Shown here: positions 1-12,645 of the stretch, piece by piece
How the letters are laid out: every line of letters begins with the position of its first letter
Position numbering within the stretch: the first letter of the stretch is position 1
Assembly (NCBI GenBank): GCA_003152835.1
Contig: PMBC01000175.1
Coordinates: forward strand, 14,213 to 53,928
DNA from: Bacteroidales bacterium
GTDB lineage: Bacteria > Bacteroidota > Bacteroidia > Bacteroidales > VadinHA17
Length of the DNA stretch: 39,716 nucleotides
Direction: 5' to 3'
The notes under the pieces: model-generated
Told to the model about the DNA's origin: nothing
The model's input: the letters and a program-made list of their open reading frames with translations, nothing else
Database searches by the model: none
Translations under genes and position numbers: made by a program

Positions 1-150
1 GTGAAGCGTCTTGGCATTCCTGATTATTTTGTAGAGCAGGGGACGCAGGAGGAGCTTTATGCCGAATGTGGATTTGATGCGGCGGGAATTGAAAAGGCTA
101 TAAGGGAAATGCTTTCAGCTCTCCCTTCGAAGGGGGCCGGGGGGATCTAA
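1..150 (+). CDS. dxs: 1-deoxy-D-xylulose-5-phosphate synthase, C-terminal fragment
   Basis: The reading frame is open from the first base and stops at a TAA ending at 150, so only the last 49 codons are present. The visible sequence ([15 protein letters not shown], then a stretch ending in AIREML) matches the conserved C-terminal domain of DXS, which condenses pyruvate and glyceraldehyde 3-phosphate in the MEP isoprenoid pathway. The TPP and transketolase domains lie outside the window. The last ten residues ([10 protein letters not shown]) look unlike the family and are encoded by a G/C-rich palindromic repeat (see the repeat at 123-144). The original stop was therefore probably lost to repeat insertion. 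A related transketolase C-domain is the alternative, but the residue pattern favours DXS. Confidence 0.8.
123..144. repeat. C/G palindromic repeat at the end of dxs
   Basis: Positions 123-134 form a perfect 12-bp palindrome (CCCTTCGAAGGG) followed by more G-rich sequence. It lies inside the last codons of dxs. It resembles the C-run/TGAA/G-run hairpin at 27179-27196, which suggests a dispersed repeat type. Confidence 0.55.
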
Positions 151-160
151 AAAAAGGCGA

Positions 161-185
161 CCGTTAACCGGTAACCGATAACCGG
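161..185. repeat. Heptamer tandem repeat CCGNTAA, about 3.6 copies
   Basis: Three consecutive 7-bp units, CCGTTAA, CCGGTAA and CCGATAA, are followed by CCGG. Only the fourth base varies. It lies between dxs and the tRNA in non-coding sequence. The 98 bases from 186 to 283 hold nothing else I can call except a partial copy of the tRNA 5' end at 252-262. Confidence 0.7.
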
Positions 186-283
186 AAGAATGAAGAGATA
201 GAAAGGGAGAAAAGATAAAAATATTTTCTATTTTCGCCCTCCTGATTTGATGCCCGGATGGCAGGACTGAGTTCTTTTTTTGC

Positions 284-367
284 GCCCGGATGGCGGAATT
301 GGTAGACGCGCTGGTCTCAAACACCAGTGGCAGCAATGCTGTGGGGGTTCAATTCCCCCTCCGGGTA
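284..367 (+). tRNA. tRNA-Leu (anticodon CAA)
   Basis: The sequence folds as a long-variable-arm (class II) tRNA. The acceptor stem is GCCCGGA (284-290) with TCCGGGT (360-366), including one terminal G-T pair. The D arm contains GGTAGACGC. The anticodon stem is CTGGT/ACCAG around a seven-base loop CTCAAAC, placing anticodon CAA at 318-320, which reads UUG leucine codons. The T arm contains GGTTCAATTCC. CCA is not encoded, so it is added after transcription. Confidence 0.95.
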
Positions 368-368
368 C

Positions 369-400
369 AAAACCTTTCTGGGAAGAGAGGTTTTTGTTTT
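369..400 (+). terminator. Rho-independent terminator after tRNA-Leu
   Basis: An 11-bp stem (369-379 with 384-394, one G-U pair) closes a GGGA tetraloop. The 3' arm runs into a T-rich tract that continues to 400. It sits two bases past the tRNA, so it should end that transcript. It also separates the tRNA from the convergent DUF4249 operon. Confidence 0.75.
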
Positions 401-425
401 TAAACAATCCAAATCATGCTTCCTG

Positions 426-1583
426 TCATTCCAGATCGACCCAGAAATCCGGTTTTTCAGAAAAACCTGCATATTCACATACAGAACAGACTTTTGTCGC
501 AAAGCCAAGACCTAATAATTTCCCGTCAGAGTCCAGAACAGGTTCCACGAATGTAAAATCACCGTTGGGCCAATCCTGCGGAGATGTCACGAATTCAACG
601 CAATCGGTACTATAATGGGGGAGATAGAGCGGATCTAGTTCGTGTGCTGTGATAAAGATCCTTTTCTGGGTCACTGCTGATACTTCAAAATACCCAAGCA
701 CCATTTCACTGGCATCATTCACATTATAAATATTACTGATAACCGGGTAAGGAGGAGAATTAAAAATATCTCCGCCAGACTCACTCACTTTTTTTAGATT
801 ATTCCAGAAACCATATTCCTTCTCTGAAACCGAATACTGTTTTACAAGAATACTATATTGCTGAGTAAGCCTGTCTGATTTGACCGGAGCTATAAATTGA
901 ATCAGCTGCTTATTAATGTAATTTGCCTCACCCGGCAGGATTGAATTTGTCACTATCTCTCCCGACATATTCCTTTTCCAGCAGACGTCTTTAACAAGAG
1001 GCACCTCATTAAAAGTGGAATCATTAATATAAATGTATCTCTGAGGGATTGGAAGAAGGAATTTCCATACTTCCTCAAATGCCCAGCGAAAGTACTGGTT
1101 CTTTCCCGTGGCATCAGATGAATTCAGGAATATTTTTATTCCGGTAAACGATTCTCCAAGGTTCCCGGAAATTTCCTCACCCTTCTCATAATAAATTGTA
1201 TCTATATCGGCAACGGGTAACATCGTGCACACTTCAGACCTGTACTCTTTCCCATCACTTGTCAGGATATGCAAGGTGTACTTCTGACCAATAACACCTG
1301 TAAATGCAGTACCGTCTGTAACATAATATCCGTCACCATAATTTTGAAGGTGCGTTTCTATTCCATCTCCGTCTGTAATATAAACATTGGCATCAGTGAT
1401 CTTTTCCGGGGTGGAATATTCCCGGCCGGTTGTCCGGCATAATTTTATTTTATAGGAACTGCTTTCGTTGGTTATGAGGCCTTCAACTACCAGAAGTGAT
1501 TTATAGTTTTTGATATTCAGATAATATGGATCGATACATGATGCCACAGCAGCCAAAACTATAAATGCAAAAAGCCGCTTCAT
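426..1583 (-). CDS. DUF4249 family surface lipoprotein, paralog 1 (shortened)
   Basis: 385 residues starting with MKRLFAF, a hydrophobic segment and a lipobox ending VASC, so a lipoprotein is predicted with Cys18 or close to it acylated. The body follows the DUF4249 pattern of Bacteroidota: LLVVEGLITNE near the start, TDGDGIETHL, the GYYVTDG segment, and a C-terminal CSVCEY...KPDFW motif. The family is often found beside TonB-dependent receptors; its ligand is unknown. It is the last gene of a four-gene minus-strand unit, 37 bp after paralog 2. Compared with paralogs 2 and 3 it lacks two C-terminal blocks, one after the DWP motif and one before the CxxC segment, about 30 residues in total. 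A longer frame reaching 1703 runs into paralog 2 and was not used, because both sister genes begin MKR at the matching point. Confidence 0.85.
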   Translation of the reverse strand: MKRLFAFIVLAAVASCIDPYYLNIKNYKSLLVVEGLITNESSSYKIKLCRTTGREYSTPEKITDANVYITDGDGIETHLQNYGDGYYVTDGTAFTGVIGQKYTLHILTSDGKEYRSEVCTMLPVADIDTIYYEKGEEISGNLGESFTGIKIFLNSSDATGKNQYFRWAFEEVWKFLLPIPQRYIYINDSTFNEVPLVKDVCWKRNMSGEIVTNSILPGEANYINKQLIQFIAPVKSDRLTQQYSILVKQYSVSEKEYGFWNNLKKVSESGGDIFNSPPYPVISNIYNVNDASEMVLGYFEVSAVTQKRIFITAHELDPLYLPHYSTDCVEFVTSPQDWPNGDFTFVEPVLDSDGKLLGLGFATKVCSVCEYAGFSEKPDFWVDLE

Positions 1584-1620
1584 TACTGTCATCCTCAGGT
1601 AAATTTTAAAATAAGTTTCA

Positions 1621-2865
1621 TTATTCCAGATCGATCCAGAAATCAGGTTTTGTGGTAATGCCAGAATATTCACATAAGGAACAGACCTTTGTTGAAAAAA
1701 CAAGTTTCAGAAGTTTACTTTGGCCAACTGGGTCCCCAAGGATATCACCAGATTTTAAAAGGGGCATCACAAAAGTAAAATCACCGGTTTCCGTGAACAT
1801 ACGGTATATTTCAGCCCACGTTGGTCTTTTCCCCCCAGGCCAATCATCCGGAGACTTCGCGATTGCAACGCAATCGGTCTTGTAATGAGGGAGATACAGC
1901 GTATCAAGTTCATGTACCGTTATAAATATCCTTTTCAGGCTCACCGCTGACACTTCAAAATATCCAAGCACCATTTCGCCGGCATCATTAACATTATGAA
2001 TATTACTGATAACCTTGTAGGGCTGCGAATCAAAAATATCGCCACCGCTTTCACTTACTTTTTTAAGATTATTCCAGAAATCATATTCCTTTTCCGAAAT
2101 CGAATACTGTTTTACCAGGATACTATATTGCTGTGTCAGCCTGTCCGACTTAGCAGGTGCTATAAACTTAATCAGCTGCTTATTAATATAATTTGCTCCA
2201 CCGGAAAGGATTGAACTGGTTATTATCTCTCCCGATTGGTTCTTTTTCCAACAGACGTCTTTTACAACAGGCACCTCTTCGAAATAGAAAGTAGTATCCC
2301 TGAAAATAGTACATGTATATCTCTGGGGACCTGGCATAATAAATTTCCACGCTTCTTCAAATGTCCAGCGGAAGTATTGGTTCATTCCAGTGGCTTCGGC
2401 TGAATTCAGGAATATTTTTATCCCGGTAAACGATTCTCCCAGTGTTCCTGAAATCTCTTCGCCCTTCTCATAATATACTGTATCAATGCCGGCAACGGGT
2501 AACATAGTACATTCCTCAGATTTGTACTCTTTACCGTCGCTGGTAATGATCTGCAGGGTATACTTCTGACCAATAACGCCTGTTAATGAAGTACTGTCTG
2601 TCTTATAATATCCGTCACCGGAATTTTGAAGATGCGTCTTTATTCCATCTCCATCGGTGAAATAAACATCGGCATCAGTGACTTTTGCCGGATTAGAACT
2701 TACATCTTTGGCAGTCCTTGACAACTTTATCTTATAAGAGCTGTTTTCGTTGGTGATCAGGCCCTCAACGACCAGCAGTGATTTATAACCTTTTATATTG
2801 GGAATATACGGATCGATACACGAGGCTGCAGCAACCAGAATAATAAATGCAAGAATCCGCTTCAT
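1621..2865 (-). CDS. DUF4249 family surface lipoprotein, paralog 2
   Basis: 414 residues from the MKRILAF start. An ATG three codons upstream (MTAMKR, 2874) is also possible, but the sister genes support MKR. The signal segment ends in a lipobox AASC followed by IDPY. The body matches paralogs 1 and 3 along its length, with VVEGLITNE, TDGDGIKTHL, VYYEKGEEISG and the C-terminal CSLCEYSG...KPDFW. It is predicted to be membrane-anchored, probably on the outer membrane; function is unknown. It lies between the MG2/plug-like gene (36 bp gap) and paralog 1 (37 bp gap) in one operon. A 65-bp stretch at 1664-1728 is identical to 4757-4821 in paralog 3, which points to recent duplication or gene conversion. 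Confidence 0.87.
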   Translation of the reverse strand: MKRILAFIILVAAASCIDPYIPNIKGYKSLLVVEGLITNENSSYKIKLSRTAKDVSSNPAKVTDADVYFTDGDGIKTHLQNSGDGYYKTDSTSLTGVIGQKYTLQIITSDGKEYKSEECTMLPVAGIDTVYYEKGEEISGTLGESFTGIKIFLNSAEATGMNQYFRWTFEEAWKFIMPGPQRYTCTIFRDTTFYFEEVPVVKDVCWKKNQSGEIITSSILSGGANYINKQLIKFIAPAKSDRLTQQYSILVKQYSISEKEYDFWNNLKKVSESGGDIFDSQPYKVISNIHNVNDAGEMVLGYFEVSAVSLKRIFITVHELDTLYLPHYKTDCVAIAKSPDDWPGGKRPTWAEIYRMFTETGDFTFVMPLLKSGDILGDPVGQSKLLKLVFSTKVCSLCEYSGITTKPDFWIDLE

Positions 2866-2901
2866 TGCTGTCATTATGATATATATATCAAGTCAGATGA
2901 A

Positions 2902-4707
2902 TTACTTGATTTTCAAAGGTATCATGCACATTCCGCGTTTCCCGTCGGCTGTGATTCCTCCGATGACAATGGTATAAGTACCACCCTCGTCGGAAGTATA
3001 GAATTGAACCTGTGTTCTGCCTTTGCTCCCCGTTTTTACAGAAGGATCCCAGAAAATTGTGTTGCGGAAATCTGGAACTGTGCTTGTCTTAAGGGAATCG
3101 GAACTGTAATCTGGCATGAAGAAACCTGATTTATCCTGAGCCCCATCAAAGATCTGTCTGAAAACTGAATTTCCTGGTTCAATGACACTCCCGTTACCTT
3201 TATTTGTAACAAAATTCACAATCCCTTCAAAAATAAAATCTTTGTAATAATATTTGGCATCTATTATATCAATGTATTCAAACTCCTTCGAAGGTACCTT
3301 AAGTAGTGCTTCAACGTCATGTACCGGTACTCCGTCAACAAGGACAATGGCCTGGTTTTCAAATAACTCAAAAGGATTCTTGCTGATTACCTTCAAGCCG
3401 ATATCCTTATTTTTCCTGTAAACAGCGACTTCGGGTAATAGCTCCTTGACAACCTCCCTGATATCTGTCAGCTCAATAAAATCGGCCATTTTTACCCGGC
3501 GGGAAGGAGTGCCGTAGAAAGTAGCGATCCTCGTATTTTCTGCAGGCAGATCGGTTTTCTTACCCAGCTGGTCGTATACGGAACCCACCTGGGTGCCTAT
3601 AATTGCCTTATTTATACCTTCGAGCCTGCTGCTATCGATCACGGGGAACTGATAAGTATAATCATCAAAGACAGTGCTGAATGGCTGGTCAAGCTCCACA
3701 TAAACATCCCTGATGTTCTTCGACAGAGGCTGAATTACAATTTCACCAGGACCAAATTGATCTTTGACAACAAATAAAAATTCGCCGTTATAGTTGGTTC
3801 GTGAAAAACGGCACCTGTCTGTTTTCCCGACAAAAGAGAGTGATATTTCAGCATTCTGCAAAGGTTCACCCGATGAGATGTACCTGATAGTTCCGGTTAC
3901 GAATTCTCCTTCAATTTCCGGCAATCTTCCCTGTGGCCGTCTGAACGAACCCGATAAAGTATCTGACAGAAAACCAGGGAAATCATTCATCCCTTCGGAG
4001 AATACAAGCGGTGATCTCACAACTGAGACGAACATATCGGCATCAACTGGTTTTCCTGACTTGTCGGTCGCATTAATATCAATCTGAACTCTCTCCCTCT
4101 GGCCATACAGACCCTGCATGGGATTGATCTTTATGTTTATCTGATTGTCCGGATCTTTTTCTGCATGGCTGTTGACTGATCCATGGTTTTCAGTAAGCGG
4201 AAAATTGCCGTTCTCCTGGTTGGGATCATAAGAAGAGGACAATAAATTAAATACCTTCTTGAAAGGATTTATTATGAAAATCGGTTTATAAACATCACGA
4301 TCGGCAGTGGAATTAAGCATCCACTTTGTATAGGCCCGGATCAGATAATTACCCGAAGTAAGAGTATCTGAAAGTCTTAAATATGCTGAACCGGAAGTTC
4401 CTTCCACCATCACCTTAATCTGATTCAGGGGATTAAACTGTGTATCCAGCAACTCCACATATACTATTTTGCTCAGGTTATCGGGGCAACCCGTAAGACC
4501 ACTTAACTTATAAATCTTCAGCCATATCTGTTCCCCGGATATGTAAATATCCCGGTCGGTCCTGACATCGAGATTTTCTGTATAACCTCCGGCTGAATAA
4601 TTATCGGTATTATCCGGGCGGGTCTGTGCGCTGGAAGAGCTGTCAAAAAGAAAAATCCAGCTAATAAAAATAATTTTCAATATGTATATATATCCTGTTT
4701 TCATCAT
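2902..4707 (-). CDS. Secreted MG2-like / carboxypeptidase-regulatory-like / TonB-plug-like protein
   Basis: 601 residues. A signal peptide covers about residues 1-28, ending SSSAQ. Residues about 45-150 resemble an alpha-2-macroglobulin MG2-type beta domain (TDRDIYISGEQIWLKIY; later SGNYLIRAYTKW). Another beta domain follows at about 190-235 (QRERVQIDINATDKSGKPVD). A carboxypeptidase-regulatory-like fold lies at about 265-345 (GTIRYISSGEPLQNAEISL). Residues about 420-510 resemble a TonB plug (VLVDGVPVHDVEAL; FEYIDIIDAKYYY) but there is no beta-barrel after it. The C-terminus is another beta stretch (FWDPSVKTG). Such proteins occur beside TonB receptors in Bacteroidota, and their role is unproven. 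It starts 6 bp after paralog 3, so translation is probably coupled. The double ATG at 4704/4707 leaves the exact start open by one codon. Confidence 0.8.
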   Translation of the reverse strand: MMKTGYIYILKIIFISWIFLFDSSSSAQTRPDNTDNYSAGGYTENLDVRTDRDIYISGEQIWLKIYKLSGLTGCPDNLSKIVYVELLDTQFNPLNQIKVMVEGTSGSAYLRLSDTLTSGNYLIRAYTKWMLNSTADRDVYKPIFIINPFKKVFNLLSSSYDPNQENGNFPLTENHGSVNSHAEKDPDNQINIKINPMQGLYGQRERVQIDINATDKSGKPVDADMFVSVVRSPLVFSEGMNDFPGFLSDTLSGSFRRPQGRLPEIEGEFVTGTIRYISSGEPLQNAEISLSFVGKTDRCRFSRTNYNGEFLFVVKDQFGPGEIVIQPLSKNIRDVYVELDQPFSTVFDDYTYQFPVIDSSRLEGINKAIIGTQVGSVYDQLGKKTDLPAENTRIATFYGTPSRRVKMADFIELTDIREVVKELLPEVAVYRKNKDIGLKVISKNPFELFENQAIVLVDGVPVHDVEALLKVPSKEFEYIDIIDAKYYYKDFIFEGIVNFVTNKGNGSVIEPGNSVFRQIFDGAQDKSGFFMPDYSSDSLKTSTVPDFRNTIFWDPSVKTGSKGRTQVQFYTSDEGGTYTIVIGGITADGKRGMCMIPLKIK

Positions 4708-4713
4708 CTTATA

Positions 4714-5970
4714 TTATTCCAGATCGACCCAGAAATCCGGTTTTGCAGAGACTCCTGAATATTCACATAAGGAACAGACCTTTGTTGAAAAAACAAGTTT
4801 CAGAAGTTTACTTTGGCCAACAGGGCCCCCAAGGATATCGCCAGATTTTAAAACGGGCCGCACGAATGTAAAATCACCGCTGTCCATAAACATATGGTAT
4901 ATTTCAATCCAGGTCGGCGAAGACCCCATTGAACTAGATGGTGGCCAATCATCCGGAGACTTTACGTATTCTACGCAATCGGATTTATAATGTGGCAAAT
5001 TCAGTGTATCAAGTTCATGGGCTGTTATAAATATCCGTTTCTGGCTTACCGCCGACACTTCAAAATATCCAAGCACCATTTCATTGGCATCATTCACATT
5101 ATGAATATTACTGATTACCAGGTAAGGCTGCGAATCAAAAATATCTCCGCCGGTCTCGCTTACTTTTTTTAGATTATTCCAGAAATCGTATTCTTTTTCC
5201 GAAATCGAATACTGTTTTACAAGAATACTATATTGGTGTGTCAGCCTGTCCGATTTAGATGGTGCTATGAATTGAATCTCCTGCTTGTCAATGTATTCAG
5301 GCTGACCTGCCAGAATGGAATACGTCACTATGTTACCCGATTTATTTTTTTTCCAGCAGGTTTCTTTTACTACAGGCACCTCTTCGAAAGATAAAGTGGT
5401 ATCATCTATAATAATACATTGGTATCGCGGAGGGCTATCTAAAAAAAATTTCCACGTTTCTTCAAATGTCCAGCGGAAGAACTTGTTCATTCCGGTCGCA
5501 CTACCCGAATTCAGGTATATTTTTATCCCTTTAATGCTCTCTCCCAGGCTGCCCGAAATCTCTTCACCCTTCTCGTAATATATTGTGTCAATAGCCGGAA
5601 CGGGAAACATTATGCACTCCTCAGATTTATACTCTTTCCCGTCACCGGTAAGGATCTGCAATGTGTATTTCTGACCTACAACGCCCGTGAATGAAGTGCT
5701 GTCTGTCTTATAGTATCCGTTGCCGCAGTTTTGAAGATGCGTTTTTGCGCCGTCTCCGTCAGATATATAAACATTGGCGTCAGTTACTTTTTCAGGAACA
5801 GAACTATCACTGCTGGTCGTCCTGCATAATTTAATTTTATAAGAACTGTTTTCGTTTGTGACAAGGCCCTCTACGACCAAAAGTGATTTATAACCTTTGA
5901 GGTTAAGATTATAAGGATCTATACATGAAACTGCAGCAACCAGAATAATAAATGCAAAAATCCGCTTCAT
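4714..5970 (-). CDS. DUF4249 family surface lipoprotein, paralog 3 (first gene of the operon)
   Basis: 418 residues from ATG at 5970 (MKRIFAF). An in-frame TTG at 5988 would add six residues but does not fit the signal peptide. The lipobox ends AVSC, followed by IDPYNLNL. DUF4249 landmarks are VVEGLVTNE, SDGDGAKTHL, IYYEKGEEISG, FWNNLKKVSE and the C-terminal CSLCEYSG...KPDFW. It is promoter-proximal in the minus-strand unit and is followed closely by the MG2/plug-like gene. The divergent unit upstream encodes the TonB receptor, so the two units probably share a regulatory gap at 5971-6166. Function is inferred only from the family and its neighbours. Confidence 0.87.
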   Translation of the reverse strand: MKRIFAFIILVAAVSCIDPYNLNLKGYKSLLVVEGLVTNENSSYKIKLCRTTSSDSSVPEKVTDANVYISDGDGAKTHLQNCGNGYYKTDSTSFTGVVGQKYTLQILTGDGKEYKSEECIMFPVPAIDTIYYEKGEEISGSLGESIKGIKIYLNSGSATGMNKFFRWTFEETWKFFLDSPPRYQCIIIDDTTLSFEEVPVVKETCWKKNKSGNIVTYSILAGQPEYIDKQEIQFIAPSKSDRLTHQYSILVKQYSISEKEYDFWNNLKKVSETGGDIFDSQPYLVISNIHNVNDANEMVLGYFEVSAVSQKRIFITAHELDTLNLPHYKSDCVEYVKSPDDWPPSSSMGSSPTWIEIYHMFMDSGDFTFVRPVLKSGDILGGPVGQSKLLKLVFSTKVCSLCEYSGVSAKPDFWVDLE

Positions 5971-6014
5971 TGTTGCCCCAGTTATCAATAGATTAAATAA
6001 GAATTAACAATTAT

Positions 6015-6034
6015 AATTGGCTTAAACACCAATT
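6015..6034. promoter_or_regulatory. Inverted repeat in the divergent regulatory gap
   Basis: AATTGG (6015-6020) and CCAATT (6029-6034) form a dyad with an 8-bp spacer. It lies just downstream of the predicted minus-strand -7 element. It could be an operator or a leader hairpin for the DUF4249 operon; no regulator is known. Confidence 0.3.
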
Positions 6035-6038
6035 GAGA

Positions 6039-6046
6039 CAAAAATA
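6039..6046 (-). promoter_or_regulatory. Candidate -7 element for the DUF4249 operon
   Basis: On the minus strand this reads TATTTTTG, an exact match to the Bacteroidota TAnnTTTG -7 consensus. It would give a leader of about 60 bases before the ATG at 5970. No convincing -33 element was found at the usual spacing, so the call is moderate. Confidence 0.4.
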
Positions 6047-6103
6047 ACATATAAAAAATTCTCTGACGATTGAAATAAATAATATTTTTATAAAATAATC
6101 CAT

Positions 6104-6120
6104 ACACAATCATTTTGTGT
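6104..6120. promoter_or_regulatory. Dyad ACACAA-N5-TTGTGT upstream of the TonB receptor unit
   Basis: A perfect 6-bp inverted repeat with a 5-bp spacer, 17 bp in all. It lies 34-63 bp upstream of the possible start codons of the secreted protein gene. The size suits a dimeric regulator binding site, but it is a single instance and unproven. Confidence 0.35.
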
Positions 6121-6154
6121 TATTTTAGAAGTAATTATATCCGCACATATTTAA

Positions 6155-6904
6155 TTGAGTTCTGATTTGAAAAAACATATAATTCCTTTTATTATCATTT
6201 TATTTTGTCCCCCCATCTGGGGACAGGTTCAAAACAAAGCTGCCAGTCAGAAGGAATATCTGACCAAAATGTATTTTCAGACCTTCGCCACTTCCAATGA
6301 TTTTGTTGATGGCAAAGAGTATTTTAACTATGCATACAAAAGCAAAAACACTCCATTGCTTTTTTCCGGAAAGAATTTTAATGCTGTGCTGTTTATGGAT
6401 GGCAGGCAATATAATAATATCAGACTTCAATATGATTCTTTTATTGATGAGGTGATATATATTGACACATCGAGGGTAATTAATTATCAGTTCCCAAAGG
6501 TCGTCCTTAAAAAAAATGCTGTCGATGGCTTTATTTTAATTACAGGAATCGACAGTATGAAGTTCGGGAATTTAAAATTTCTGAATGACAGTGTAAATAA
6601 AACTGACGGGGGTTACTATGAGGTCGCTTATAACGGTCCTTCAAGATTCCTTATCAAACACAGGTCAATTCTATATATAAGCGATGCAAGGAATGAATAT
6701 AAATATTCACCTGAAAAATTAATCCTTAAAGATGGAATTTATTACAAAATAAGAAATAATAAAGAATTGCTCAAGTTGTTCAGCAGCCGGTCGCGGGAAA
6801 TAAATACGTTCCTCCGCAGGAACAGGATCAATGTCAGGAAAGCCGGTAAGGAGGAGTTAGCTGAAACACTAAAATACTGTGATGCACTGGTAAAAAAACA
6901 ATAA
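6155..6904 (+). CDS. Unrecognised secreted protein preceding the TonB receptor
   Basis: I do not recognise this 249-residue protein. It starts at a TTG. TTG at 6155 gives MSSDLKKH and TTG at 6167 gives MKKHIIPF, which makes the better signal peptide. The signal peptide probably ends after PPIWGQ. The mature part is rich in short beta-like stretches (AVLFMDGRQYNNIRLQYD; KYSPEKLILKDGIYYKI) and has a basic helical C-terminus. It ends one base before the ATG of the TonB receptor, so the two are almost certainly co-transcribed and coupled. A role as a periplasmic or outer-membrane accessory to that receptor is inferred from position only. It faces the DUF4249 operon across a gap of about 190 bp. 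Confidence 0.75.
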   Translation: MSSDLKKHIIPFIIILFCPPIWGQVQNKAASQKEYLTKMYFQTFATSNDFVDGKEYFNYAYKSKNTPLLFSGKNFNAVLFMDGRQYNNIRLQYDSFIDEVIYIDTSRVINYQFPKVVLKKNAVDGFILITGIDSMKFGNLKFLNDSVNKTDGGYYEVAYNGPSRFLIKHRSILYISDARNEYKYSPEKLILKDGIYYKIRNNKELLKLFSSRSREINTFLRRNRINVRKAGKEELAETLKYCDALVKKQ

Positions 6905-6905
6905 A

Positions 6906-9686
6906 ATGAGGAGAATCAGGAATATAATCATATTGTTGTTTTTACCCCTGGTGCTTGCTGCCCAGGATAACAAGCTGTCACTTCAGTTCAACCAGATCCT
7001 GTTCAGGGACCTTGCAGATACTATTCAGAAAACCGTCCCGGTAAAAATCTATTATTCAAATAAATGGGTCGACTCGCTGTATCTTAAAGTAAATGCTGAA
7101 AATGAATCTCTTTCTGCATTACTGAACAAATCCCTTTCAAACAGCGGGTTGTCATTTTTTATTACTGATGATAACAAGCTGATCATTTCCAAAGGATATA
7201 CCATCAAGACGAATTTTCTTAAAGAGTATCGTGAATTTCTTAAGAGAAAAGTAGCAATGCCTGATACTGTCGTTTATTACACGGCGCCGGAAAAAAAAGA
7301 TGAAGGCACTATAAATGATGAATACAAAATATTCAAAATCGGGAACCTTTCAAACCTCAAGAAATCAGGACCTGCTCATCTTTCCGGTAATCTGAAGGTC
7401 ATCGGGTCAGGAGATCCTGTCGTCGGAGCTATCATATATGTGGATAAGCTCAAAGCAGGTGCAGTAACCAATAATGTCGGTTACTATTCACTGGAGGTCC
7501 CAAAGGGACTATATCAGATTGAATACAGGATGGTTGGGATGAAGACCACCAGACGCAACGTTATTTTATATTCAGATGGCACTCTTGATGTGGGACTTGA
7601 GGAGAGTACTAATCTCCTGAAAGAAGTCACTGTCTCTGCCAGTAAGGAGAACAATGTTCGTGATGTAAAAATGGGTATTGAAAAAATAAGCATGAAAATG
7701 CTTAAACAGATACCCATGGGGCTCGGCGAAGTTGACCTGCTGAAGAGCTCCCTTATGCTGCCAGGGGTTCAGTCTACAGGTGAAGCGTCAAATGGGTTCA
7801 ACATCAGGGGAGGAAGCATTGATCAGAATCTTATCCTTTTTGATGGAGCACCCATTATCAATCCTTCTCATTTTTTCGGTTTCTTTTCAGCTTTCAATTC
7901 AGATATCATTCAGGACGTGACTCTTTATAAAAGCGGAATACCTGCAAGATACGGAGGACGTGTCTCCTCAGTCATGGATATCATTCTGAAAGAAGGATCC
8001 ATGGAAAAATTCAATGTGAGCGGCGGGATAAGCCCCATGACAGGCAGGCTAATGGTTGAAGGACCTATTGTTAAAAACAAGAGTTCGTTCATCATAAGCG
8101 GCAGAACTACATATTCAGACTGGGTGCTCGGCAAGCTAAAGGACAATCAGTTGAAACAGAGCAGTGCGGGGTTTAATGACATTCAGGGTCTTCTGACATT
8201 CGATATAGACAAAAAGAATTCAATCTCTGTCTCCGGTTATTTAAGCACCGACCATTTTGAGTTGTATAAAGAAAGTGCAATCGAATATGAGAATCTGACA
8301 TCATCAGTTAAATGGGACCACAGGTTTAATAGCCGGTTCTCGTCTGAATATTCCGCAATATTAAGCAATTACAGCTACCGGCTTGATTCAAAGGATAATC
8401 CAATGACAGATAATTCTCTGAAATATAAGCTGGATCAAACTATTCTACGGGCCGATTTTACTTATCTCCTTTCGGAACAGAATAAGATGGAATTCGGACT
8501 GGATGCAACGAACTATAAACTTTCACCCGGAAATCAAGTCCCTTTAGGATTATTATCAACTAAAGAAGCAAAATCACTTGAGAAGGAGCATGCAATTGAA
8601 CCCTCACTCTATTTTTCTGATGAATATGAATTTACTCCAAGATTTGTTGTTTCCGGAGGCCTCCGTTTTACTATGTTTTCTTCATTTGGTCCGAAATCGG
8701 TATACCAATATGCGGAAGGTCTTCCCCGGACAGTGGGGAACATGACAGATACACTGTTTTACAAATCTGGTCAGATCATAAAAATGTACCCTGAACTTGA
8801 ATACAGGTTTTCCTCAAGATTCATTATCACACCTGACATATCTATAAAAGGAGGCTTTCAGAGAAACTACCAGTACCTTAACATGATTTCCAATACCACT
8901 TCAATGTCTCCGACGGATATCTGGAAACTAAGCGACAACTTTGTAAAACCTCAGAGGGGAGACCAATTTTCATTTGGGATTTATAAAAATTTCAACAGAA
9001 AAGGCTCAGAATTATCGATTGAAGCCTACTATAAGAATCTTAAAAATATTATCGATTACAAAGGAGGGGCTGTTCTCCTGATGAATGAACATCTCGAGAC
9101 AGATATTCTTAATGCGACGGGGAAAGCTTACGGAATTGAATTTATGCTGAAAAAAGAAACCGGAAAGATCACGGGATGGATAAGCTACGTGTATTCCAGA
9201 TCGTTTCACAAAGTAGTCGGTAACTCTGAAGAGGAAACAATAAACGGAGGCAAGTACTTCCCTGCTGATTTTGATAAGCCTAATGATCTGAAACTTGTAA
9301 CCAATATCAAATTTCTCAGAAGGCTGAATTTTACTACAAATTTAGTTTACAGTACCGGCCGTCCTATAACATACCCCGTTGCCTATTTCAATTTCTACAA
9401 TGTGACCAGGGTATTTTATTCTGAAAGAAACGAGTTCCGTATTCCAGATTACCTGAGACTTGATTTATCGGCAACTTTTAATGGCAATCTCAAAGCCAGG
9501 AAATTAAATCATTCATCATTTAATTTTACTGTTTACAATGTCCTCGGCAGGAGAAACCCCTATTCAATCTATTTCAAAATTGAGGATGGAGTAGTCAATG
9601 GTTATAAGATGTCGATTTTCGGACAGCCTATCTTCATGTTGACTTATAATTTCAGGATCAGAGGCAATGCCTCTACAGATTTTTAA
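6906..9686 (+). CDS. STN-domain TonB-dependent outer-membrane receptor
   Basis: 926 residues. The signal peptide is about 1-20. An STN (secretin/TonB N-terminal) domain covers about 22-96, with LSLQFNQILFRDLADTIQK at its start. After a linker, residues about 157-235 form a carboxypeptidase-regulatory-like domain (GAIIYVDKLKAGAVTNNVGYY). The plug spans about 237-362 (FNIRGGSIDQNLILFDGAPI; SGIPARYGGRVSSVMDI). The remainder to a terminal Phe is beta-barrel. STN domains normally pass a signal to a FecR-type anti-sigma factor, but no fecI/fecR is present in the window. The substrate is unknown. It follows the secreted protein by one base and overlaps the convergent acetyltransferase gene by 14 bp at its 3' end. 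Confidence 0.93.
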   Translation: MRRIRNIIILLFLPLVLAAQDNKLSLQFNQILFRDLADTIQKTVPVKIYYSNKWVDSLYLKVNAENESLSALLNKSLSNSGLSFFITDDNKLIISKGYTIKTNFLKEYREFLKRKVAMPDTVVYYTAPEKKDEGTINDEYKIFKIGNLSNLKKSGPAHLSGNLKVIGSGDPVVGAIIYVDKLKAGAVTNNVGYYSLEVPKGLYQIEYRMVGMKTTRRNVILYSDGTLDVGLEESTNLLKEVTVSASKENNVRDVKMGIEKISMKMLKQIPMGLGEVDLLKSSLMLPGVQSTGEASNGFNIRGGSIDQNLILFDGAPIINPSHFFGFFSAFNSDIIQDVTLYKSGIPARYGGRVSSVMDIILKEGSMEKFNVSGGISPMTGRLMVEGPIVKNKSSFIISGRTTYSDWVLGKLKDNQLKQSSAGFNDIQGLLTFDIDKKNSISVSGYLSTDHFELYKESAIEYENLTSSVKWDHRFNSRFSSEYSAILSNYSYRLDSKDNPMTDNSLKYKLDQTILRADFTYLLSEQNKMEFGLDATNYKLSPGNQVPLGLLSTKEAKSLEKEHAIEPSLYFSDEYEFTPRFVVSGGLRFTMFSSFGPKSVYQYAEGLPRTVGNMTDTLFYKSGQIIKMYPELEYRFSSRFIITPDISIKGGFQRNYQYLNMISNTTSMSPTDIWKLSDNFVKPQRGDQFSFGIYKNFNRKGSELSIEAYYKNLKNIIDYKGGAVLLMNEHLETDILNATGKAYGIEFMLKKETGKITGWISYVYSRSFHKVVGNSEEETINGGKYFPADFDKPNDLKLVTNIKFLRRLNFTTNLVYSTGRPITYPVAYFNFYNVTRVFYSERNEFRIPDYLRLDLSATFNGNLKARKLNHSSFNFTVYNVLGRRNPYSIYFKIEDGVVNGYKMSIFGQPIFMLTYNFRIRGNASTDF

Positions 9687-10155
9687 GCATCCAGATATTG
9701 CATCCGAAATGGCCTGAATTTCCCATCGGGCCATCAATCATTCCGAATCCGGCTTTTTCGTATAATCCGATAGCTTTGCTCAGTTCGGGAAGCGATTCAA
9801 GATAAACCTGTTTATATCCCAATTCCCATGCAGATTCAAGGCTCTTTTCTAGCAGCTTGCGCCCGGTTCCTTTTCCACGCTGCGAAGAAACCAGGTATAA
9901 CTTAACCAGCTCGCAGCATCCTTCCGGAAGGCCGGGTGTGGAATAGATTCCGCAACCTCCTATTATCTTTCCGATCTCCTCAGCAATCCAGTAAACCGAC
10001 CCCGGTTTCCGGAACAGTGAAAAGAGGTCGTCTGTGGTCGGATCAAAATATACAGTCCCAGGCCTGGCTATGTCAAATTCCCTGAAAACGGAACGTATCA
10101 GGTCAGCTATCTCCTTATTGTCTCTCTGCTCGAGGTTTCTGAAAATAGTGCTCAT
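9673..10155 (-). CDS. GNAT family N-acetyltransferase
   Basis: 160 residues. The acetyl-CoA binding motif is clear (SSQRGKGTGRKLL, about residues 89-101), preceded by the beta4 stretch CCELVKLYLV and followed by AIGLYEKAGF, the usual end of the fold. The substrate cannot be told from sequence. The gene lies 29 bp after the MFS exporter and is probably co-transcribed with it. Its 3' end overlaps the TonB receptor gene tail-to-tail by 14 bp. Confidence 0.9.
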   Translation of the reverse strand: MSTIFRNLEQRDNKEIADLIRSVFREFDIARPGTVYFDPTTDDLFSLFRKPGSVYWIAEEIGKIIGGCGIYSTPGLPEGCCELVKLYLVSSQRGKGTGRKLLEKSLESAWELGYKQVYLESLPELSKAIGLYEKAGFGMIDGPMGNSGHFGCNIWMLKNL

Positions 10156-12204: not shown

Positions 12205-12645
12205 TCACTTGATCATGGCCTCAACAATATTTATTGCATCAGCAATACACTTTTCACATTTAATATCAAACAGTTTCTGGTCAATGATCTTCTTATGGTC
12301 TGCAGGATTAGTCATATCGAGTCCGTTAAGAATTTCCCTGCAATTTACCGATCCGTTCAATGTTTTAAATTCGTTGAAAAATTCCCTGGTCTTTAAATAA
12401 GTAATGTCCTTTTTTTCTTCAGGATCGTTGAGAGCCCTCCCATACTTTAATCCGAGAACCATCATTGCGCCTGTAACAGCTCCGCATGTCAATTGTTGCC
12501 TTCCCATTCCTCCGCCGAATGCACACGAAATTTTCAAACAATCGTCTTCGGATAATCCCGATTCTGTTCTGAAAGCTGCCAGTACAGATTGGGAACAGTT
12601 AAATTTGTCTCTGAAATACTTTATTGCCTTTTCCTGCTTTTTCAT
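12205..12645 (-). CDS. C_GCAxxG_C_C family cysteine protein
   Basis: 146 residues with seven cysteines in the family order: NCSQS (C17), C36, C41 before FGGGMG, TCGAVTGA (C54), C102, then CEKC (C130, C133). The family is thought to be redox-active or metal-binding, but no reaction is established. The protein is soluble with no signal peptide. It is first in a two-gene unit with the small membrane protein. Just upstream lies the broken uracil-DNA glycosylase-like gene, whose remnant ends 41 bp before this start. Confidence 0.9.
   Translation of the reverse strand: MKKQEKAIKYFRDKFNCSQSVLAAFRTESGLSEDDCLKISCAFGGGMGRQQLTCGAVTGAMMVLGLKYGRALNDPEEKKDITYLKTREFFNEFKTLNGSVNCREILNGLDMTNPADHKKIIDQKLFDIKCEKCIADAINIVEAMIK

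Follow-up and report, generated by a model that had tools for sequence, protein, structure and literature searches.

The closest described relative of the locus treated here is the BT2172-BT2173 operon of Bacteroides thetaiotaomicron, which encodes a TonB transporter and a DUF4249 protein. According to the part of PMC11003636 that was available, the operon is conserved, its receptor subfamily almost always adjoins a DUF4249 gene across dozens of genera, disruption of BT2172 or of BT2173 had similar consequences (per earlier work cited there), and the pair is treated as a transporter, acting together. Within the literature searched, this paper, as far as it was available, was the only one to refer to DUF4249 by name, and it did so for a receptor-lipoprotein pair. 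The present locus occupies positions 426-9686 of a window of 39,716 nucleotides (the whole stretch of DNA analysed) from a Bacteroidales bacterium, contig PMBC01000175.1, and encodes three DUF4249 lipoproteins (D1-D3), a secreted protein with MG2- and plug-like features (C), a secreted protein of no named family (E), and a TonB-dependent receptor (F). This gene set had been proposed from the letters of the window in what is called here the original prediction, and all six open reading frames (ORFs) proved to be present, in two divergent units. We find that the locus is one copy of a conserved Bacteroidota four-gene set, E, F, D and C, which has apparently not been described before; no description turned up in the literature searched, whose coverage mostly excluded subscription journals.

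Initial single-protein searches of 98 genomes gave relatives of E in 52 and of C in 67, and 40 stretches were mapped with profiles derived from the proteins of the window. When public genomes were scanned with an alignment of C, 484 relatives were matched, the best 80 of which define 77 loci; because these were found through C and are the ones most like the C of the window, C is present in them by design, whereas E, F and D are not. The 77 loci resolve into 78 clusters with C, 52 of them away from contig edges and 26 at edges, and all four families are complete in 51 of the former and 13 of the latter; the lone incomplete non-edge cluster is an extra solitary C in L123. No fifth family emerged, other neighbour families being common to at most 6 of the 77 loci within 3 kb and to at most 10 over the whole flanks. 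The gene order is E-F-D-C on one strand, F-D-C-E, or a divergent pair of E-F and D-C units like those of the window, and the receptor tree requires a single change for the divergent arrangement among the rows labelled four-gene, a labelling with some errors. Carriers include Bacteroidales, Mucilaginibacter, Pontibacter, Saprospiraceae and others, and the genome of the window itself holds, elsewhere, two tandem E-F-D-C cassettes, two F-D-C-E cassettes and an F-D pair, with a further F-D pair at L245. The original prediction had proposed co-occurrence in related genomes as a check on a conserved set of six genes; the families do co-occur and the neighbourhood is conserved, but its core is four genes, with D amplified.

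A phylum-wide sample was chosen through DUF4249, which was sought in 80 genomes and found in 49; the 60 best hits outside the genome of the window fall into 59 loci (two hits share one locus), in nine of which the profiles used recovered no D. Complete sets of E, F, D and C occurred in five loci (L186, L188, L189, L191 and L194), L221 had F, D and C, and the remainder showed a receptor with D, a receptor alone, D alone, or neither. Receptors were classed by whether the match to the F profile started in the N-terminal (STN) part, genes near locus ends being dropped. Among the ten receptors with this part, five were accompanied by E, D and C, one by D and C, three by D only and one by none of them, while none of the 38 receptors lacking it had E or C nearby and 32 had D. 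When all fetched loci were pooled (partly overlapping, some fetched twice), E, D and C stood near 94 of 99 non-edge F proteins with the STN region, and E or C near 2 of 41 receptors without it, namely a receptor fragment in L099 and a receptor-D pair beside a full cassette in L138. Thus, E and C go with receptors having the STN region.

The D proteins of the four-gene set also differ from their relatives elsewhere. D1-D3 matched DUF4249 (PF14054) with 141-142 bits against a curated cut-off of 28.5 (expectation values near 1e-41), so that their assignment in the original prediction stands far above threshold. All 91 long D proteins in an alignment share the lipobox cysteine, and C204, C331, C394 and C397 (413-residue numbering) are conserved in at least 90% of them. 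An AlphaFold2 (AF2) model of 413 residues of D2, with a mean predicted local distance difference test (pLDDT) of 91.5 and a predicted template modelling score (pTM) of 0.86, consists mainly of beta strands, and the predicted fold is a tandem of two immunoglobulin (Ig)/fibronectin type III (FnIII)-like beta domains. A tail motif, CxxC...P.[FWY]W (CxxC...PxFW), is present in 90 of 97 D proteins of 350-440 residues from the loci found through C and in 0 of 42 of 255-330 residues from the phylum sample; at least four cysteines beyond residue 45 occur in 93 of the 97 and 0 of the 42, respectively. A recount without length limits, over 53 D proteins of 60 loci including L245, gave the motif in all six D proteins of the five four-gene loci, in none of the one in L221, and in one of 46 elsewhere (L220); the D of L187 has four cysteines and no tail motif. 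The tail is therefore a sequence marker that separates two branches with few exceptions, and the window proteins (388-418 residues, with the CxxC tail) stand apart from the mostly short D proteins of sampled loci without E and C.

Of the 64 complete clusters, 47 have a single D gene, 10 have two, 3 have three, 1 has four and 2 have five; the last, L177, showed only a fragment of D, which lies at the end of the contig and not between F and C. Multiple D genes are thus found in 16 of 64; two of these clusters, L136 and L181 (two D each), are tandem pairs of cassettes. Two copies of E occur in 1 of the 64, of F in 2 and of C in 3. Two different lineages carry five tandem D genes in one cassette (L123, 3234-9948; L164, 3706-9732). 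In a tree of 55 of the 91 aligned long D proteins, D1-D3 form one clade (support 100/99) adjoining one D of the nearest relative, L109, whose second D is more distant and oppositely oriented; copies from the same locus also cluster in L113, L148, L158 and L170, with partial clustering in L123, L160 and L185. It follows that D has been amplified repeatedly, and mainly D among the cassette genes, in several lineages. Between the window and its nearest relative, F is the most conserved part, with 91% identity, followed by C (74%), E (68%) and D2 (65%).

The mechanism best supported by these data, which we favour with moderate confidence, is a four-component TonB-dependent uptake complex with interchangeable D lids. 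F would be the TonB-dependent transporter. D, a surface lipoprotein made up of two Ig/FnIII-like domains and a tail with cysteines, would capture ligand above the barrel, for which it would serve as a lid. C would be a scaffold of the macroglobulin type, docking on F or D through its plug-like domain, and E a soluble envelope subunit of the complex. The D gene would have been copied in the lineage of the window after its split from the nearest relative fetched, and one receptor could therefore work with three interchangeable lids whose ligand preferences overlap but differ. From the genes we infer the location of the parts, complex formation, uptake, lid exchange and the ligand. The reading is suggested by the four families occurring together in all but one of the non-edge C clusters, by the restriction of E and C to STN-region receptors in the phylum sample, by the lack of an outstanding fifth family, by the multiplication of D in preference to E, F and C, by the grouping of same-locus D copies beside a highly conserved F, and by the similar outcome reported for disruption of either BT2172 or BT2173 (PMC11003636, available part). 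We also regard it as possible, albeit doubtful, that the locus represents an undescribed class of four-component importer, in which one barrel is combined with swappable Ig-like, cysteine-tailed lipoproteins and a separate macroglobulin protein bearing a second, barrel-less plug, and in which new ligands are gained by duplication of the lid alone.

Several observations weigh against the uptake complex. For the four-gene type, interaction and uptake are read from the genes, and the genetic evidence in the literature comes from a different receptor-DUF4249 pair. Neither E nor C accompanies four of the ten STN-region receptors of the phylum sample, and most complete cassettes make do with a single D. 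The tail motif is an imperfect marker, since it is missing from 7 of 97 long D proteins, and the D of L220 has both the motif and four cysteines in a locus without E and C. Furthermore, relatives of E and C occur apart and are hence not exclusive to the cassette: homologs of E were found in 18 of 80 phylum genomes, many of them distant from DUF4249, and C-like MG2/plug proteins of 820-890 residues stand without E, F and D in five fetched loci.

It can also be argued that the number of D genes is neutral, the tandem duplicates having no functional difference and the cassette being an ordinary importer, as the prevalence of single-D clusters and the commonness of tandem duplication would allow. 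This we consider rather unlikely, because within-lineage amplification recurs, mostly without E, F and C, and because the three window copies, at 75-79% protein identity and a synonymous divergence (dS) of 0.66-0.83, show a ratio of non-synonymous to synonymous divergence (dN/dS) of 0.18-0.21, which reveals purifying selection between them and argues that they are kept by selection. The same values do not support the description of the lipoproteins as near-identical in the original prediction, nor its suggestion of antigenic variation, and no inverted repeat pair of at least 30 bases was found in positions 1-9800 of the window. As a conserved system the locus is thus stronger than had been claimed, and as a case of antigenic variation it is weaker.

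With regard to F, the CarbopepD_reg_2 (3.4e-13) and Plug (9.3e-9) domains establish the TonB receptor that had been predicted; the STN domain of that prediction is seen in part of the family and is undetected in the N-terminus of the window protein taken alone, at expectation values up to 10. Among 30 F proteins (0.1 or better), STN was found in 10 and the TonB barrel in 5; in the four with positions, STN was placed at residues between 61 and 116, and the N-terminus of the window protein follows the consensus of the family alignment whose corresponding region is the STN of those 10. These matches, together with a FecR_C-like match in 5 of the 30, would fit a function in sensing and not in feeding, where the STN region would report bound ligand to an anti-sigma factor in the inner membrane and D, C and E would capture the signal. 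Such a role appears unlikely, as no neighbour family recurs beyond the 6 of 77 loci within 3 kb given above, no recurrent regulator family being found across the loci obtained through C, and as none of ten scanned proteins of the right flank of the window (two of which matched nothing) belongs to a sigma or anti-sigma family, the left flank and distant genes lying outside that Pfam scan.

C alone gave weak matches below cut-off, to MG2 (0.024) and CarboxypepD_reg (0.007), so that its assignment as MG2/plug-like comes mainly from the family: of 21 members, 20 gave a match to MG2 and 11 to Plug (0.1 or better). The C profile matched the MG2 domain of complement C3 among solved structures (5e-5) and, in a profile-profile comparison, the CarboxypepD-plug region of the receptor (1.3e-4, probability 54%). 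The thioester motif C.EQ was found in none of 80 C proteins, and a looser pattern in one. L111 (5626-9333) encodes a 1235-residue C-like protein beside a normal C of 606 residues, with a D fragment between them. In a tandem cassette of the window's own genome (L069, 8680-10771) C is present as two ORFs of 173 and 497 residues, and this copy therefore looks broken or misassembled.

E, which the original prediction had left without a family, matched none in Pfam or NCBIfam, and 67 E proteins gave nothing in Pfam beyond weak single-member matches. Outside the cassette, E was followed in 15 stretches, 14 of them taken from other genomes and one from the genome of the window, and the DUF4249-lipoprotein profile found no D in any. 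A SusD-family gene lies near the E homolog in L250, L253 and L257 (the scan took in nine proteins from these three loci and L246), and E may therefore have a general accessory role with barrels of this kind. An N-terminal stretch in one E homolog (L258, 6180-7241) resembles, by eye, the CarboxypepD domain of outer-membrane receptors. MG domains are protein-binding scaffolds in known families, and this and the E homologs near SusD-family genes would suit a secretion, folding or surface-assembly device, with C and E working on a substrate that is exported and F serving as the gate through which it leaves or through which D is placed on the surface, but we deem it quite improbable, given that the plug of F and the barrel of its homologs are those of an importer and that the related BT2172/BT2173 pair is treated as a transporter (PMC11003636, available part).

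The features of the locus are compiled below. The minus-strand unit reads D3-C-D2-D1 and the plus-strand unit E-F, with spacings of at most about 30 bases within each. The dyads between D3 and E, to which the original prediction had drawn attention, are at chance level: three with arms of 6 compare with 2.3 expected in first-order random sequences (P 0.39), the longest is not beyond chance length (P 0.79), and none recurs in the equivalent gap of the nearest relative. A tRNA-Leu (CAA) lies at 284-368, 57 bases from the end of D1; none was present in the 12 related loci examined for one, and the site therefore seems peculiar to the lineage of the window. In the right flank, 12205-12645 encodes a putative redox-active C_GCAxxG_C_C protein, apparently unrelated to the cassette.

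Features of the divergent DUF4249/TonB receptor locus (positions in the window; residues, aa)
Feature	Position	Strand	Remarks
D1, DUF4249 lipoprotein, last gene of D3-C-D2-D1 unit	426..1592	-	388 aa from ATG; ORF open to 1703; PF14054 E 7.4e-41
D2, DUF4249 lipoprotein	1621..2874	-	417 aa from ATG; PF14054 E 4.8e-41
C, secreted MG2/CarboxypepD/plug-like protein without barrel	2902..4707	-	601 aa; family-level MG2, Plug
D3, DUF4249 lipoprotein, first gene of D3-C-D2-D1 unit	4714..5970	-	418 aa from ATG; ORF open to 5988; PF14054 E 4.6e-41
Divergent intergenic region between D3 and E	5971..6154	.	184 bases, guanine plus cytosine 22%
E, secreted protein without named family	6155..6904	+	249 aa, TTG start; AF2 mean pLDDT 89.7
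F, TonB-dependent receptor: N-terminal STN-like region, CarbopepD_reg_2, plug, barrel	6906..9686	+	926 aa

The four-gene branch adds two linked parts, E (without a Pfam family) and C, to the known receptor-DUF4249 pairing, and, since D has been amplified repeatedly, one can test whether an importer may widen its diet by copying the lid and not the channel. Compared with described systems, the STN-type N-terminal region of the receptor family is reminiscent of the FecA/FecR/FecI transducers, but no recurrent regulator neighbour was found for the cassette in the 77 loci or among the ten right-flank proteins. C shares the MG2 domain with alpha-2-macroglobulin and complement, from which it differs in its size (mostly 550-850 residues), in lacking the thioester motif and in having a plug-like domain. 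SusC/SusD resembles the locus in uniting a TonB receptor with CarboxypepD and plug domains and a lipoprotein partner gene; SusD, however, is mainly helical, whereas D gave no match to SusD Pfam families at an expectation value of 1 and its model is mainly beta, and F scored 50.5 bits with the SusC/RagA model TIGR04056, far below the cut-off of 368.25, so that the SusD-like partnering of the original prediction survives as an analogy at most. Its statement that DUF4249 proteins neighbour TonB receptors, on the other hand, has a published counterpart in BT2172/BT2173 (PMC11003636, available part), which the locus resembles in a DUF4249 gene beside a TonB receptor, conserved in the relatives of the window. 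The BT2172/BT2173 proteins themselves are presumably of the short-D, STN-less type, like most sampled loci without E and C, whose receptors lack the STN region and whose D proteins are shorter and have no CxxC tail (except L220). The locus of the window, unlike these sampled loci, combines E and C with an F of 926 residues that includes the N-terminal region and with long, CxxC-tailed D lipoproteins.

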